Assembly (NCBI RefSeq): GCF_000355765.4 | Contig: NZ_CP021106.3 | Coordinates: 1,831,137-1,895,136 of the forward strand | DNA from: Nitrosospira lacus | Lineage (GTDB): Bacteria; Pseudomonadota; Gammaproteobacteria; Burkholderiales; Nitrosomonadaceae | DNA length: 64,000 nucleotides | Reading direction: 5' to 3' | Part shown: positions 54,878 to 63,389 of the stretch, in pieces | Layout: each line of letters begins with the position of its first letter | How positions within the stretch are numbered: position 1 is the first letter of the stretch | The notes under the pieces: generated by a model | What the model saw: the letters and a program-made list of their open reading frames with translations, nothing else | Told to the model about the DNA's origin: nothing | The model's database searches: none | Position numbers and translations under genes: made by a program

Positions 54878-56728
54878 TCATTCGTGCCACCCGCCAGCTG
54901 GAGGTTCGAGTGTCCAGACTACTGACCATGGACCGAGCACGCCTTGCGCCGTCGCTGCTGACGAGGCGAACACAGTTTGTCCGGCCGAAACGGCTGCGTG
55001 AACCTTTTCTACCGAGAAATTCGCCAGCAGCCGCAGCGTCGAACGATCTCCCAGATGCCACTCGACCCGCAAGCCGACGGACGCAAATACTTCAAACTTC
55101 GCGGAATATCCTCCCATGCCGCGCAGGCGCGGCACTATGATTTCCCGGCGCAGCTTCAGGAGGTTCCGGTAATACGCCAGCCAGTCCGCCTGCGTGCCGT
55201 CGGCGAGCGAATCCCAGTCGAGCTTTGAGGCAAGAAAAGTCTGGATCTCATTCGGGTCCGGTATGGCGGCCTGCATCGCCGCATCGGCGAAGCGCGCGAA
55301 TCGGGCAAATTCGCGCCGCCGGCCTTGCGTCACCGCTGCGCGCAGCTCGCCGCTAAAGTCACAAAAGAACCGGAACGGCGATTGCGCGGCGAACTCCTCG
55401 CCCATGAACAGCATGGGGATGCTCGGCGCCAGCAGATAGACAGCGGCCCCGGCGCGCACGGCGGCGGCCGGCGCAATATGCGCAATGCGTTCCCCGAAAG
55501 CGCGGTTGCCCACCTGGTCGTGACATTGCAGGAAGGACACGAAGGCTTGCGGAGGCAGATGCGCGCTCGCTTCGCCGCGCTGCGCATGGCCGCGATAGGC
55601 CGACGCTTCTCCCTGGTAAGCAAATCCTTCCGCCAGGCAGCGGCCGAGATGGCGGATCGGCTCATCGGCGTAGTCCATGTAGTATCCATCCGCCTCCCCG
55701 GTTGCGAGGACATGCAGGGCGTGGTGCATGTCATCATTCCATTGGGCCGCATATTGGACGCCAGAAGCGTGGCGCCCGAGATAGCGCGCCACGTTGGCGT
55801 CGTTCTCCAGAATCAGGTGCACCTGGCGTTTCCCATCAATGCTTGCGTGCGCGCGCTCCGCCAGTTCGGCGAGAACGTGTAGCTCGGAGTCGTCGACGAT
55901 CGCATGCACCGCATCCAGACGCAGGCCATCGAAATGATACTCGTGCAGCCAGTACAGTGCATTGTGGATGAAAAATTCACGCACGTACCGGCTGTGCGCG
56001 CCGTCAAAATTGATCGCCGCACCCCAAGGGGTATGATGGCGCTCGGTAAAGAATTCCTTCGCGTAAACATGGAGATAATTTCCCTCCGGCCCGAAGTGGT
56101 TGTACACCACGTCCAGCAGCACCATCAGGCCTTTTGCGTGCGCGGCCTGAATCAACGCCTTGAGGTCTTCCGGGCGGCCGTAGCGGCTATCCGGGGCGTA
56201 GGGCAGTACGCCGTCATAGCCCCAGTTGCGCGTTCCGGGAAAGTCGGCCACGGGCATCAGTTCGAGCGCCGTCACGCCCAATTCCGCAAGATGGTCGAGC
56301 CGTTCCATCACTCCCGCGAAGGTTCCCCCGGGCGAAAAGGTACCGATGTGCAACTCATAGATCACGGCTTCTTCCCATGGGCGCCCGCGCCATGCCGCAT
56401 CCCGCCATTCGAAGTCCGCAGGATCGATCACCTCGCTCGCGCCATGCACATCGTCCGGGTTGAAACGCGAGGCTGGGTCGGGAACACGCAGGCCGCCGCC
56501 CACCTCGAAACAATAGCGCGTGCCCGCACCGGCATGGGATGCAATGAATTCGAACCAGCCGCCGCCGCACGAGTCCATCGAAAACGCCTGCTCATCTTGC
56601 CCGGCATTGATCCACAGCGTTACCCGGCCGCAGCCGGGTGCCCACAGACGGAAGCGTACGCCCCGTTCCGTGATGCGCGCGCCATAAGGCATGTCATGGG
56701 ATCGTGCAAGCGGGCCTGGATCTGTCAT
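54878..56728 (-). CDS. treZ: Malto-oligosyltrehalose trehalohydrolase
   Basis: 616 residues. Releases trehalose from maltooligosyl-trehalose made by TreY. Has the N-terminal E-set domain (GARITERGVRFRLWAPGCGRVTLW), then GH13 regions DVVYNHFGPEGNY, FDGLRLDAVHAI with the nucleophile Asp, VHLILENDAN with the acid Glu and FLQCHDQVGNR with the His-Asp. Length is normal. It is 6 bp from treS-maltokinase upstream, indicating one operon and matching TreY/TreZ pathway logic. Confidence 0.95.
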   Translation of the reverse strand: MTDPGPLARSHDMPYGARITERGVRFRLWAPGCGRVTLWINAGQDEQAFSMDSCGGGWFEFIASHAGAGTRYCFEVGGGLRVPDPASRFNPDDVHGASEVIDPADFEWRDAAWRGRPWEEAVIYELHIGTFSPGGTFAGVMERLDHLAELGVTALELMPVADFPGTRNWGYDGVLPYAPDSRYGRPEDLKALIQAAHAKGLMVLLDVVYNHFGPEGNYLHVYAKEFFTERHHTPWGAAINFDGAHSRYVREFFIHNALYWLHEYHFDGLRLDAVHAIVDDSELHVLAELAERAHASIDGKRQVHLILENDANVARYLGRHASGVQYAAQWNDDMHHALHVLATGEADGYYMDYADEPIRHLGRCLAEGFAYQGEASAYRGHAQRGEASAHLPPQAFVSFLQCHDQVGNRAFGERIAHIAPAAAVRAGAAVYLLAPSIPMLFMGEEFAAQSPFRFFCDFSGELRAAVTQGRRREFARFARFADAAMQAAIPDPNEIQTFLASKLDWDSLADGTQADWLAYYRNLLKLRREIIVPRLRGMGGYSAKFEVFASVGLRVEWHLGDRSTLRLLANFSVEKVHAAVSAGQTVFASSAATAQGVLGPWSVVWTLEPPAGGWHE

Positions 56729-60168: not shown

Positions 60169-61065
60169 TCATGAACCGGACGTTTTGCGATGCAGGAGAA
60201 AACGCAGCATGGCATCCGTTATCGCGCCTTTTCCGGCACGGTCGAATGCGACAAACATCGGCGCGGTATTGACTTCGAGAAACTTCAATTTTCCGGTGTC
60301 ACCGCACGTTTTATAGTCCGCCGCCGCGAAATCAAGACCGATACGATCGGTTAATCGTTTCAATTGCCGGGCCAGCCGTTTTGATGGACTCGCGATCATC
60401 CATAATCTGCATGCACTATCCACCCGGTAATCGATTTCTTTTGATTCAATTCCGAATGCCAGAAATTCCTTGCCTATACGGAATACCCTGATGTCGGGTG
60501 ACACCAGCCGCTCCTGGATAATGGCGGGCGCCGCCGCCGCGCCACCGCGCTGCGCGACTTTCCCTATCAGATCGCCCAATACCTGTGTGTATTCGCCTCC
60601 GCAGACCGGCTTTCCGATCCACTTCCCGAAGTCGTCGCCGGCTTCTTCATTAATTCTCTGAATGTCATTCGATACCAGCGAACGCGGAACGTTCATGCCT
60701 GCCTCCAATGCCATGCGCAGAATGGCCGGCTTGAGGACATTGGGTTCCCCATCCCTGTTGAAGGCGCGGATATCGGTGCGCGAGGCAATCCAGCCTGCAA
60801 TCGCGGCGTACCAGGCATGGGCACGAAAAGCTGTCTGTTCGCGGGCATCCGCCATGTGATTGAACACGTCATAGCGCAGGAACGCCGCATCCGGTTCGAG
60901 CCGCATGCCATCAAGCAGCAACCGGTTGGCCCGGATATCCCAATGTATTGATGGATGCGTACTGGGTCCAAACAGGACTTTTGTGACGGATATCTTGCGC
61001 TTGCGCGCAACCTCGAGCAAATGCGCAATATTGGGGTCCTGTTCTCCACCCGAAATAAGCAGCAT
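60169..61065 (-). CDS. ATP-grasp ligase of a graspetide (omega-ester peptide) pathway
   Basis: 298 residues with a RimK/MvdD-type ATP-grasp fold: an N-terminal pre-ATP-grasp half (MLLISGGEQDPNIAHLLEVA), a nucleotide-binding half (GKPVCGGEYTQVLGDLIGK, IIQERLVSPDIRVFRIG) and the metal-binding end LKFLEVNTAPMFVAFDRAG (Glu and Asn ligands). Its start overlaps the precursor stop by one base (TGATG), so the two are co-translated. ATP-grasp enzymes next to TTxxxxEE precursors activate Glu/Asp side chains and join them to Thr or Lys, forming macrolactones or lactams. Function is inferred from context and fold. Confidence 0.85.
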   Translation of the reverse strand: MLLISGGEQDPNIAHLLEVARKRKISVTKVLFGPSTHPSIHWDIRANRLLLDGMRLEPDAAFLRYDVFNHMADAREQTAFRAHAWYAAIAGWIASRTDIRAFNRDGEPNVLKPAILRMALEAGMNVPRSLVSNDIQRINEEAGDDFGKWIGKPVCGGEYTQVLGDLIGKVAQRGGAAAAPAIIQERLVSPDIRVFRIGKEFLAFGIESKEIDYRVDSACRLWMIASPSKRLARQLKRLTDRIGLDFAAADYKTCGDTGKLKFLEVNTAPMFVAFDRAGKGAITDAMLRFLLHRKTSGS

Positions 61066-61619
61066 CAGTATTCGCCGAATGGATTGCCTTCGCCAGGCCC
61101 CCCCTTGGAACCCTTGCCTTCCTCTCCCATCACCAGTGTCGTGAGACCTTCCTCGCCCTTCAGTTTTGTCGTGGGGGCGGGTATTCCCTCACCCTTTTCC
61201 CCGGTCGATGGACTCTCTTCTCCTTTCAGGAGTGTGGACGGACCTTCCTCGCCGAGAGCGAAGGTCGTTTGTGGGCCTTCTTCGCCTTTGGCCTTGGTGG
61301 TCGGATTCTCCTCTCCCTTGAGAAGGGTGGTAGGCCCTTCTTCGCCTAGCGCTAGGGTCGTGGGCGTCGGTCCCTCTTCACCTTTTGGCTTCGTTGTCGG
61401 CAACGGCTTGCCCTTGGTTCCCTTCGGAGGCTTGGTGGCCGGACTTTCCTCACCCAGCGCCAGGGTCGTAAACTGGTCTTTTTCCTTCAAGCTCTTGTCC
61501 TCTTCGCCTATCGCAAGTGTGGTCATCGGCACTTCTTCACCCGCCGCCCTGGTTGTCAGTATGTTTTCTTCACCCAGGATCAGCGTGGTGACATTTTCTG
61601 AATTTTTTTTCTTTGCCAT
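61065..61619 (-). CDS. Graspetide precursor with repeated TTxxxGEE cores
   Basis: 184 residues, ribosome binding site AAGGGAGA upstream. Eleven exact TTxxxGEE units begin at residues 11, 22, 33, 51, 75, 87, 97, 107, 118, 150 and 160; STxxxGEE is at 128; degenerate units at 61 and 138. They match the plesiocin-type motif TTxxxxEE, where each unit is cross-linked by ester bonds between Thr and Glu. Linkers are short, often Gly-Pro. The first core begins at residue 11, so there is hardly a leader; recognition may use residues 41-50 (DKSLKEKDQF) or the repeats themselves. The C-terminus is Gly/Lys-rich, ending GNPFGEY. No exporter or protease gene is adjacent. Confidence 0.88.
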   Translation of the reverse strand: MAKKKNSENVTTLILGEENILTTRAAGEEVPMTTLAIGEEDKSLKEKDQFTTLALGEESPATKPPKGTKGKPLPTTKPKGEEGPTPTTLALGEEGPTTLLKGEENPTTKAKGEEGPQTTFALGEEGPSTLLKGEESPSTGEKGEGIPAPTTKLKGEEGLTTLVMGEEGKGSKGGPGEGNPFGEY

Positions 61620-61978
61620 TGATTATCTCCCTTTGAAATAAAATGACATTAACATGGATTGGCGCAACAAGCATCAGTATAGGAGAGATCTTCAGGAAAT
61701 CAAGTCAAGGCACTGGGTGAATTGTGCTGATTGGATCGAATGCAGCGGGAAACCCGGACATAACGTGGCGCCCAGATTCCCGATTACCCAGGCACGCCTG
61801 CCGCAGCGGTTTCTATTGCGATTTCCCGCGGCGGCAGGGTCACCGCCGATTGGCTGCATGCGTTTTCTTGACAATGCCTTCGAAGATACTAAGCTGAAAT
61901 CACGATCAATCCTGCAATGCCGGACAGTCTCGGCGCGTTTTTACTTCCTTTCCAGCCATCATATCGAGGAGAGCTACC
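61620..61978. other. Divergent control region between the graspetide precursor and tyrosinase
   Basis: 359 bp with no convincing gene. It must contain both promoters; a shared operator was not recognised. Confidence 0.5.
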
Positions 61979-62884
61979 ATGACAGCATGCAAACACGACG
62001 AACCTTATCTCAACCCGGATTATGAAGGCGATGCCGGGCATGAGCATGACCATACGGCGCCGCCGGACAATCCCCGCTATCCGGATTCGCGCATCTATGG
62101 AAAGTATGCATCCAAGGAACCGCCACGCTATGTTCCGCATCCCTATGAGCATATATGCTTCAAACCGCGCAAGGAGGACTACAAGCCGCCCATGCCATGT
62201 GATGGCGACGAGGGTAATGGCGACGGATTATGTTTGCGCAGGAATCAGCGTTCACTCACCGTCGATCAGCAAAACCGGTTCCTGAATGCCTTTACCCAGA
62301 TAAACGCGGTAAATGCCCTGGGGCCGCTGGTGGATATCCATTCTAACGCCATTCATCAAATGCACTCGAATCCCCGTTTTCTGCCGTGGCATCGGATCTA
62401 CCTGATACGCATGGAGGAGCTGTTGAAAATGGTGGATCCCACTGTGTGCATCCCCTATTGGAAATCGAGCGAGGATCAATCGTTCCCCTCATGGCTGGCT
62501 GGTTTCACCCCGACCGTGAACCTGATGAACGGGCCGCATACGGTAACCCGCAACATCGGCGCATTCGCAACCTTGCCAACCATGGCGGACGTAACGGCGG
62601 TAATGGGCAATGGCACCTACAATTCGTTTGCGTCTGCGCTCGAAGGCATTCATAACTCGGGACATGTCTGGGTTGGCGGATCAATGGGGGGCATACCGAC
62701 CGCGCCCACGGACCCGGTATTCTGGATGCACCATGCGGAGATAGACCGGATCTGGGCGGAATGGCAAGCGGCAAATCCCGGCCAGAATCCCGGTCTTGCC
62801 GGCGCCGCGGCGATTATGGACCCCTGGACCGAGGATGAGGCAGCCACGCGCGATATCGCCGCGCTGGGGTATACCTACGTGTAA
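61979..62884 (+). CDS. Tyrosinase (type 3 copper oxidase)
   Basis: 301 residues with GAGGAGAG before the ATG and no signal peptide. CuA ligands: His129 and His138 (MHSNPRFLPWHRIYL), with H121 or H126 as the first. CuB: GIHNSGHVWVGG (two His) and DPVFWMHHAEIDRIW. All six copper His of tyrosinases can be placed. The N-terminal 90 residues are acidic and His/Pro-rich (AGHEHDHTAPPDN), unlike the compact family core, and could bind copper or act as a lid. Tyrosinases oxidise phenols to o-quinones. It is divergent from the graspetide genes, 359 bp apart. Confidence 0.92.
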   Translation: MTACKHDEPYLNPDYEGDAGHEHDHTAPPDNPRYPDSRIYGKYASKEPPRYVPHPYEHICFKPRKEDYKPPMPCDGDEGNGDGLCLRRNQRSLTVDQQNRFLNAFTQINAVNALGPLVDIHSNAIHQMHSNPRFLPWHRIYLIRMEELLKMVDPTVCIPYWKSSEDQSFPSWLAGFTPTVNLMNGPHTVTRNIGAFATLPTMADVTAVMGNGTYNSFASALEGIHNSGHVWVGGSMGGIPTAPTDPVFWMHHAEIDRIWAEWQAANPGQNPGLAGAAAIMDPWTEDEAATRDIAALGYTYV

Positions 62885-62975: not shown

Positions 62976-63389
62976 TCAAGAATTGTGCCGCCGGGAAGCC
63001 GGCAGGGGGAATACTTCGAATACTGAAATGGAATAATCCAGAAAAAGTTCGATTTTTTGCTTGAGACCAGTGGACATCGTTATCTGTCTGGAGCGGAGAT
63101 CTTCCGGATCCGTATGCTCGATGAGCAAGCCATGATCAATTGCAATCTGAACATACTTGATGGCGGTGCGTTGACTGATGTTTGGCATGAGTTGAGGCAA
63201 CTCGGATTTATAAAAAGTATCACGCGTAGCCCCGTCCAGCCGTAGCCACATCTGCGTAAAAAGATCGTAGTAGTTCAAGTCATGGAAGAGCTTGTCTCCC
63301 AAAACATCCATCCAGTATTGATCCGTGCTGTTAAGTAACTGAATAAACTGGCGCCGTCTCGCGTTCGCGGAGCTATCGGGTTTGCTCAT
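62976..63389 (-). CDS. Putative winged-helix transcriptional regulator
   Basis: 137 residues. The middle resembles a winged helix: DLFTQMWLRLDGATRDTFYKSEL then NISQRTAIKYVQIAIDHGLLIEHTD, with the recognition helix probably ISQRTAIKYVQIAIDHG and the wing after GLLIEHTDPEDLRSRQITMS. A helical C-terminus (GLKQKIELFLDYSISVFEV) suggests dimerisation. It is divergent from a fatty-acid desaturase gene, and perfect or near-perfect palindromes lie between them, a layout typical of a local repressor and its operator. Exact family not recognised. Confidence 0.6.
   Translation of the reverse strand: MSKPDSSANARRRQFIQLLNSTDQYWMDVLGDKLFHDLNYYDLFTQMWLRLDGATRDTFYKSELPQLMPNISQRTAIKYVQIAIDHGLLIEHTDPEDLRSRQITMSTGLKQKIELFLDYSISVFEVFPLPASRRHNS

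Follow-up and report, generated by a model that had tools for sequence, protein, structure and literature searches.

The ammonia-oxidizing soil bacterium Nitrosospira lacus carries a gene for a highly repetitive protein, which is followed immediately by the gene of an ATP-grasp ligase. This arrangement raises the question of what the two genes make, and of how the ligase recognizes a substrate that has almost nothing ahead of its first repeat. The window, that is, the stretch of 64,000 nucleotides analyzed here, belongs to a genome assembled as a single contig of 3.26 Mb, with a completeness of 99.95%. Judged from its sequence, the locus is a multi-bead graspetide locus, and the best explanation of the whole, which we consider probable, is a two-gene system in which the ligase would be recruited by the tail of the precursor, to form ester beads along a chain that would remain uncut and act as an inhibitor. 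Beyond the number of beads, the most interesting aspect of the locus is its missing leader, together with a conserved C-terminal tail.

The precursor (positions 61,065–61,619, reverse strand) is a protein of 184 amino acids with an ATG start and 13 [ST]TxxxGE[EG] units, and it is conserved in two sister genomes of the genus (G006 and G009). Its bead region (residues 11–167; 61,119–61,589, reverse strand) contains, by motif counts, 11 TTxxxGEE units, one STxxxGEE, and two degenerate units, STGEKGEG (residues 138–145) and ATKPPKGTK (residues 61–69), exactly as described in the initial annotation. In 20,000 composition shuffles of the 184-residue protein, TTxxxGEE occurred 0.016 times on average and twice at most, against the 11 occurrences observed. 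A six-frame scan of the window, which covered open stretches of at least 60 residues (68,564 residues in total, with the precursor's own frame included), recovered four further matches to the looser pattern [ST]Txxxx[ED][ED], one per frame in four of the frames, and none of these was a TTxxxGEE. The codons of the beads are mixed (ACG, ACC, and ACA for threonine, GAA and GAG for glutamate, GGT, GGC, and GGA for glycine), and the array is thus not a young tandem repeat of the DNA. No family was found for the precursor in Pfam or NCBIfam. Its spaced Thr/Ser and Glu/Asp residues are those of a graspetide core, and 12 of its units, the [ST]TxxxGEE, conform to the TTxxxxEE pattern of the group 2 graspetides, the group of plesiocin, in which the unit consists of two threonines and two glutamates across eight residues.

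The ligase (60,169–61,065, reverse strand; 298 amino acids) overlaps the precursor through the sequence TGATG, in which the stop codon of the precursor runs into the start codon of the ligase, and the overlap named in the initial annotation is confirmed. The locus therefore has the pairing that defines the graspetides, of an ATP-grasp peptide maturase adjoining its precursor. Pfam returned no match for the ligase, and the NCBIfam model TIGR04187 (GRASP_SAV_5884) scored 61.1 bits, below its curated cut-off of 350. The best match in the PDB was 7drm, at 1.5e-15 for the ligase itself and 3.6e-26 for a profile of six ligases, followed by 9bou (8.6e-10), 5ig9 and 5ig8 (about 4e-8), 7m4s and 7mgv, and the RimK chains (about 0.02). 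The record of 7drm is named "ATP-grasp domain-containing protein", and we take the entries 7drm–7drp to be the plesiocin ligase, PsnB. Residues K152, D250, E264, and N266 presumably occupy the positions of the ATP-grasp residues that contact the nucleotide and the metal. Residue R193 lies in a column with an arginine in all three of the PDB alignments compared, and pairs with residue 233 of the 7drm chain; should this chain carry a 20-residue tag, R193 presumably corresponds to PsnB Arg213, which binds the ring-forming acid.

One alternative is a ligase that, in the manner of RimK, attaches amino acids, or that links chains to one another, with the repeat serving as a polymer substrate instead of forming cyclic beads. 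This is very unlikely, given that the profile which reaches 3.6e-26 with 7drm gives the RimK chains 0.024, and that the spacing of the TT and EE pairs equals that of the plesiocin unit. The scores that speak for a RimK-like enzyme are those of the relatives of the ligase, which match TIGR00768 weakly (25.5 bits, with a cut-off of 143.4), as well as PF08443 (E 0.25), while the linking of chains has a precedent in a graspetide synthetase that joined two proteins in engineered coiled coils, as reported in PMC12291112.

The pair is also found beyond the genus. Profile searches of overlapping sets of genomes (399 of the order, 398 of the phylum, and 7, 198, and 385, respectively, of the genus, family, and class of the genome G1139) recovered seven relatives of the ligase at E < 1e-30. 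These are G1139, G1226, G1227, G1342, G1281, and G1282, which form one family (f263), and G1506, from another family. All seven belong to the class of G1139, a class other than that of the window. The GroEL gene of G1139 has a DNA identity of about 84.5% with copies on Paracoccus plasmids, which indicates that family f263 is probably the Rhodobacteraceae. Together with the three Nitrosospira ligases, these sequences form a single clade (support 100/99) that spans two classes, and each of the ten lies immediately downstream of its bead precursor, in which [ST][ST]xxxGEE occurs twice or more. The initial annotation had named homologues sitting beside unrelated substrates as the result that would overturn the graspetide reading; no such case exists within the clade, and the reading is well supported, by this adjacency and by 7drm as the best match in the PDB. 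The stretches fetched around 11 more distant, outgroup ligases contain no frame with at least two of these units. PsnB, included as a partial row, adjoins the clade with a weak support of 69/56. The branching among the ten is not resolved in the tree that includes G1506; when this row is left out, the Nitrosospira ligases group with G1281 and G1282 at 86/88. The rows omitted from the tree were two relics (G031 and G041), G436, and the weak matches G1272, G1422, G1478, G1484, G1486, G1541, G1655, G878, and G1005. When the stretches of all these rows were scanned in six frames, no bead precursor was found, with G1272, G1422, G1541, G1655, G878, and G1005 represented by short search loci. Among other ligases, L070 and L071 lie beside precursors of 160–176 amino acids with repeated TKTxxxxExDD-like cores and a PF in the leader, and, in the case of L070, also between the cores.

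The precursors of the relatives share the beads, and differ in what precedes them. In G1139, G1226, and G1227, which belong to one genus, a domain that looks globular and spans about 105 residues is followed by the beads, with 7–8 TTxxxGEE and 14 GEE motifs. The precursor of G1342 also has such a domain, of similar length, and around an assembly gap it shows two strict units as well as KTxxxxxEE units of a looser kind. That of G1281 has 150 residues, with a lipoprotein-like N-terminus and two TTxAIGEE beads, and that of G1282 is cut by the end of the contig, with three TTxxxGEE. In G1506, six TTxxxGEE and one TSRAMGEE lie behind an N-terminal region with a weak match to the Nif11 leader (E 0.0049 in Pfam and 0.0025 in NCBIfam, neither of which reaches the cut-off). 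The globular-looking N-domain found no match in Pfam or NCBIfam. In four Rhodobacteraceae-like loci (L066, L075, L076, and L083), it is homologous (42%, 1e-21) to the first half of a Nitrosospira protein of 244 amino acids, which is found in 21 of the 23 genomes of the genus. In at least 10 of these 21, a match to the tyrosinase lies less than 3 kb away from it; copies of the protein are located at L056:1885-2619 and, outside the window, at G000:C1:2001565-2002290.

Within Nitrosospira, the ligase is present in three of 23 genomes, that of the window included, each time with the precursor directly upstream. The two sister precursors are both 91% identical to that of the window, and the ligases 88% and 82%. 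The NG86 omega values are 0.05–0.10 for the precursor and 0.10–0.15 for the ligase, with dS of 0.47–0.89, which is to say that both genes are under purifying selection. Over the 13 units and three genomes, the framework of each unit (T/S, T, G, E, E) provides 65 columns, one of which varies, in comparison with eight of the 39 loop columns. The class of the last loop residue, hydrophobic (h) or lysine (K), follows the order hhhhKhKKhKKKh in all three genomes. This conservation of the framework relative to the loop, together with the fixed order of the loops, indicates that each bead retains its own character, as would be expected of a fixed multi-headed product; the appearance of the precursor is not that of a fast-evolving toxin.

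This pattern also bears on another alternative, in which the acidic repeat protein would stay unmodified and serve a structural or metal-binding purpose, with the ligase acting elsewhere. Acidic residues make up 17% of the precursor, and a copper enzyme is encoded next to it, as such a protein might lead one to expect. The threonine pairs, however, are as conserved as the glutamate pairs (the sole variable framework column is a glutamate), and the ligase adjoins the precursor in all ten members of the clade, in two classes, which makes this alternative very improbable.

A profile of the precursor matched the window alone among 369 genomes of the class, so the family is sparse. Decayed relics of the ligase, with stops at a common place, lie beside a ferritin-like gene in two genomes (G041, locus L012, and G031, locus L014) of a second genus in the taxonomic family of the host. 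This genus is probably Nitrosomonas, and the pathway has apparently disappeared on more than one occasion. A more distant, intact ATP-grasp ligase is found in G088 (L013, 4678–6933), beside a protein of 404 amino acids with KDISTDP and DTxKE-type repeats, a possible long repeat substrate. There is no sign of a recent horizontal arrival of the pair, given that the GC content of the locus (0.558) is near that of the window (0.566), and that the dS values are within or somewhat above the range of the neighbors. Carriage on plasmids or phages was likewise rejected, with no match to the ligase in a search of plasmids; the precursor gave a single weak plasmid match (E 0.7), apparently unrelated, and none in phages or viral contigs.

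The organization of the known systems provides a measure of how far the locus resembles them. Plesiocin (PsnA2/PsnB, group 2) is alike in having a single ATP-grasp ligase and a chain with several beads, each closed by two esters, and has an N-terminal leader. The description of the locus as "plesiocin-type" is apt for the core unit, and not for the locus as a whole, which has no N-terminal leader, no transporter among the neighbors scanned, and no C39 peptidase in the genome, and whose ligase clade is not firmly joined to PsnB (69/56). A C39 peptidase domain (PF03412) was sought in the one-contig host genome without a match, although 8 of 14 control genomes were positive, and no transporter domain was found in the neighbors from position 54,878 to about 12 kb beyond the end of the window (small ORFs excluded). 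The frequent, but not universal, group 2 neighbor, an NHLM-type transporter with a C39 peptidase, was thus not found here, the chain is probably not trimmed, and no export route is evident. Group 2 loci are often accompanied by an NHLM transporter, according to PMC13097080. The four beads of plesiocin given in PMC12291112, the number also quoted in the initial annotation, compare with 12 predicted here. The same source describes plesiocin as tetravalent and thuringinin as trivalent. Thuringinin, AMdnA, and chryseoviridin also have several cores per precursor, although with different core motifs; the first two have three cores each, and AMdnA has an N-terminal leader (PMC12291112, PMC5934393). 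Long repeat precursors are also described in PMC13097080, which adds 19 groups to the previous 24 and predicts 21,584 graspetides. Among these, corallotide (group 15) differs from the present locus in its Lys-Asp links, in five KxxxD motifs, and in its need for partner proteins, while groups 34 and 35 have long repeat precursors, and the loci of group 35 consist, as here, of the synthetase and the precursor.

The locus also departs from plesiocin at the N-terminus, where only 10 residues precede the first bead. An in-frame TAA stop (61,623–61,625) lies two codons ahead of the ATG, followed upstream by the Shine-Dalgarno-like sequence AAAGGGAG (61,627–61,634), a plausible ribosome site, and together these elements occupy positions 61,623–61,634 (reverse strand), directly before the start codon. 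The stop leaves no room for a longer leader, and a hidden one is ruled out for the strain of the window. The usual graspetide leader, N-terminal and with a Phh-type motif, is thus absent, and a PFG is found at the C-terminus instead. The Phh motif is present in about half of the graspetide precursors, as stated in PMC8939145, which makes an N-terminal leader with this motif usual, but not strictly defining.

The C-terminal NPFG (residues 179–182; 61,074–61,085, reverse strand), which ends two residues short of the end of the protein, is a candidate follower recognition motif. A PFG starting exactly five residues from the C-terminus is found in seven of the ten precursors of the clade, or seven of nine when G1506 is left aside, as NPFGE[YF] in the three Nitrosospira and [NT]PFGRR in G1139, G1226, G1227, and G1342. 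The tail is missing from G1281, G1506, and the contig-cut precursor of G1282, and it is therefore not needed in all members. As the rows with the PFG do not form one resolved group in the tree, the tail must have been lost or gained more than once. A candidate substrate was identified at 8 of the 11 outgroup loci (L015, L023, and L069 yielded none), with a PF within the first 32 residues, the part in which leaders are located, in six of these eight, and an ending in PFGxx in none. One of the eight, a frame of 97 codons beside the ligase of L086 (G1349), begins with a PF-containing MKPFLF and closes with NPFDPK; tail PF motifs may therefore extend beyond the clade. A PF is also found within the beads of the Rhodobacteraceae-like precursors. 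When the tails of the window and G1139 were shuffled, a 4-mer was shared in the last eight residues in 40–157 of 50,000 shuffles, depending on the pool shuffled, and a 3-mer in 937–2,055 of 50,000, and a chance sharing of the tail is thus unlikely, but not nil.

A parallel for the tail is provided by fuscimiditide (ThfA/ThfB), in which RPFG is suggested to be the key recognition motif of the leader, and the leader also functions at the C-terminus by engineering, according to PMC13003496, while the NPFG considered here is natively C-terminal. The RPFG of that leader resembles the ending of the seven precursors, a PFG plus two residues. Given this, and the occurrence of the Phh motif in about half of the precursors (PMC8939145), the PFG tail is proposed to be a natural C-terminal recognition follower. 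We suggest, as a tentative hypothesis, that in one natural branch of the graspetides the task of recognition may have passed from the N-terminal leader to [NT]PFGxx, a follower of five residues at the C-terminus, which would have freed the N-terminus, bare in Nitrosospira and occupied by a globular domain in Rhodobacteraceae-like bacteria, and would yield whole, unprocessed chains of a dozen or more rings. That the recognition part is exchangeable is suggested, in turn, by the relatives whose precursors start like a lipoprotein or with a Nif11-like leader.

It is rather unlikely, by comparison, that recruitment of the ligase depends on the repeated cores themselves, or on the internal linker EDKSLKEKDQF (residues 40–50), with the PFG tail used for some other purpose, such as a protease or degradation signal. 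Core glutamates reportedly raise the affinity of PsnB, which would count for recruitment by the cores, as do G1281 and G1506, which have no tail, and the linker is invariant across the three genomes of the genus. It is not seen, however, in three aligned relatives of the other class, and engineered ThfB without a leader gave no modification, despite weak binding to the core (PMC13003496). In the favored reading, the ligase would most likely be drawn to the conserved NPFG together with the core glutamates.

The remaining candidate for a role in the pathway is the divergent neighbor, a tyrosinase-like copper oxidase (61,979–62,884, forward strand), which adjoins the pair in the host genome (G000) and in G009. 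The oxidation of the C-terminal tyrosine of the peptide by this enzyme would fit its position in two of the three genomes, but both sister precursors end in phenylalanine rather than tyrosine, the gene is missing from the locus in G006 (no match in 12 kb around the pair), and tblastn, with E values of up to 1, found none in the 5.6–11.5 kb around each of the seven relatives. On these grounds, tailoring by the tyrosinase was rejected as scarcely credible, and the enzyme probably does not belong to the pathway. A second neighbor, a protein of 137 amino acids with no significant family match (62,976–63,389, reverse strand), is a syntenic neighbor of the pair in all three genomes, and is conserved in G016 as well, although the pair is absent there; it is perhaps a regulator. 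In G016 (L057), the same block of a desaturase and the 137-aa gene lies near treS, with a broken tyrosinase remnant between them.

In the mechanism proposed here, the ligase would phosphorylate the side chains of both glutamates in every TTxxxGEE unit, and the two threonine hydroxyls would then attack, so that, as in plesiocin, each unit would fold into a hairpin with two nested ester rings. Twelve bicyclic beads with 24 esters are the best reading of the product, which would be a single chain of about 18.6 kDa, probably left whole, with 12 canonical beads and a mass change of about -432 Da, while the sister species may have 13 beads. The average mass calculated for the unmodified chain is 19,034.0 Da, or 18,902.8 Da once the initial methionine is removed, and 24 esters would lower it by 432.4 Da. 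The likeliest role, by analogy, would be the inhibition of proteases by a multi-headed chain whose beads are of two kinds, bearing hydrophobic or lysine loops. As of 2022, all the graspetides that had been characterized were protease inhibitors, according to PMC8939145.

The literature searched contains no paper that joins a graspetide with Nitrosospira or with ammonia-oxidizing bacteria, which agrees with the claim that none had been described in an ammonia oxidizer, within a scope of main texts; such loci may be listed without comment in the supplementary tables of surveys. Microviridin and Nitrosospira are mentioned together in a survey of reservoir plankton, and PMC9765116 contains Nitrosospira within a reference.

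If the proposed recognition is correct, a very short, native C-terminal tag would be useful for the cyclization of proteins that need a free N-terminus, for which the published route is a leader of 67 residues, 40 of them dispensable, engineered to the C-terminus (PMC13003496). If the modification is complete, each chain would carry about three times the number of beads of plesiocin, and would provide a test of processive versus distributive action by the ligase. With none reported in the literature searched, the locus would place a graspetide in an ammonia oxidizer.
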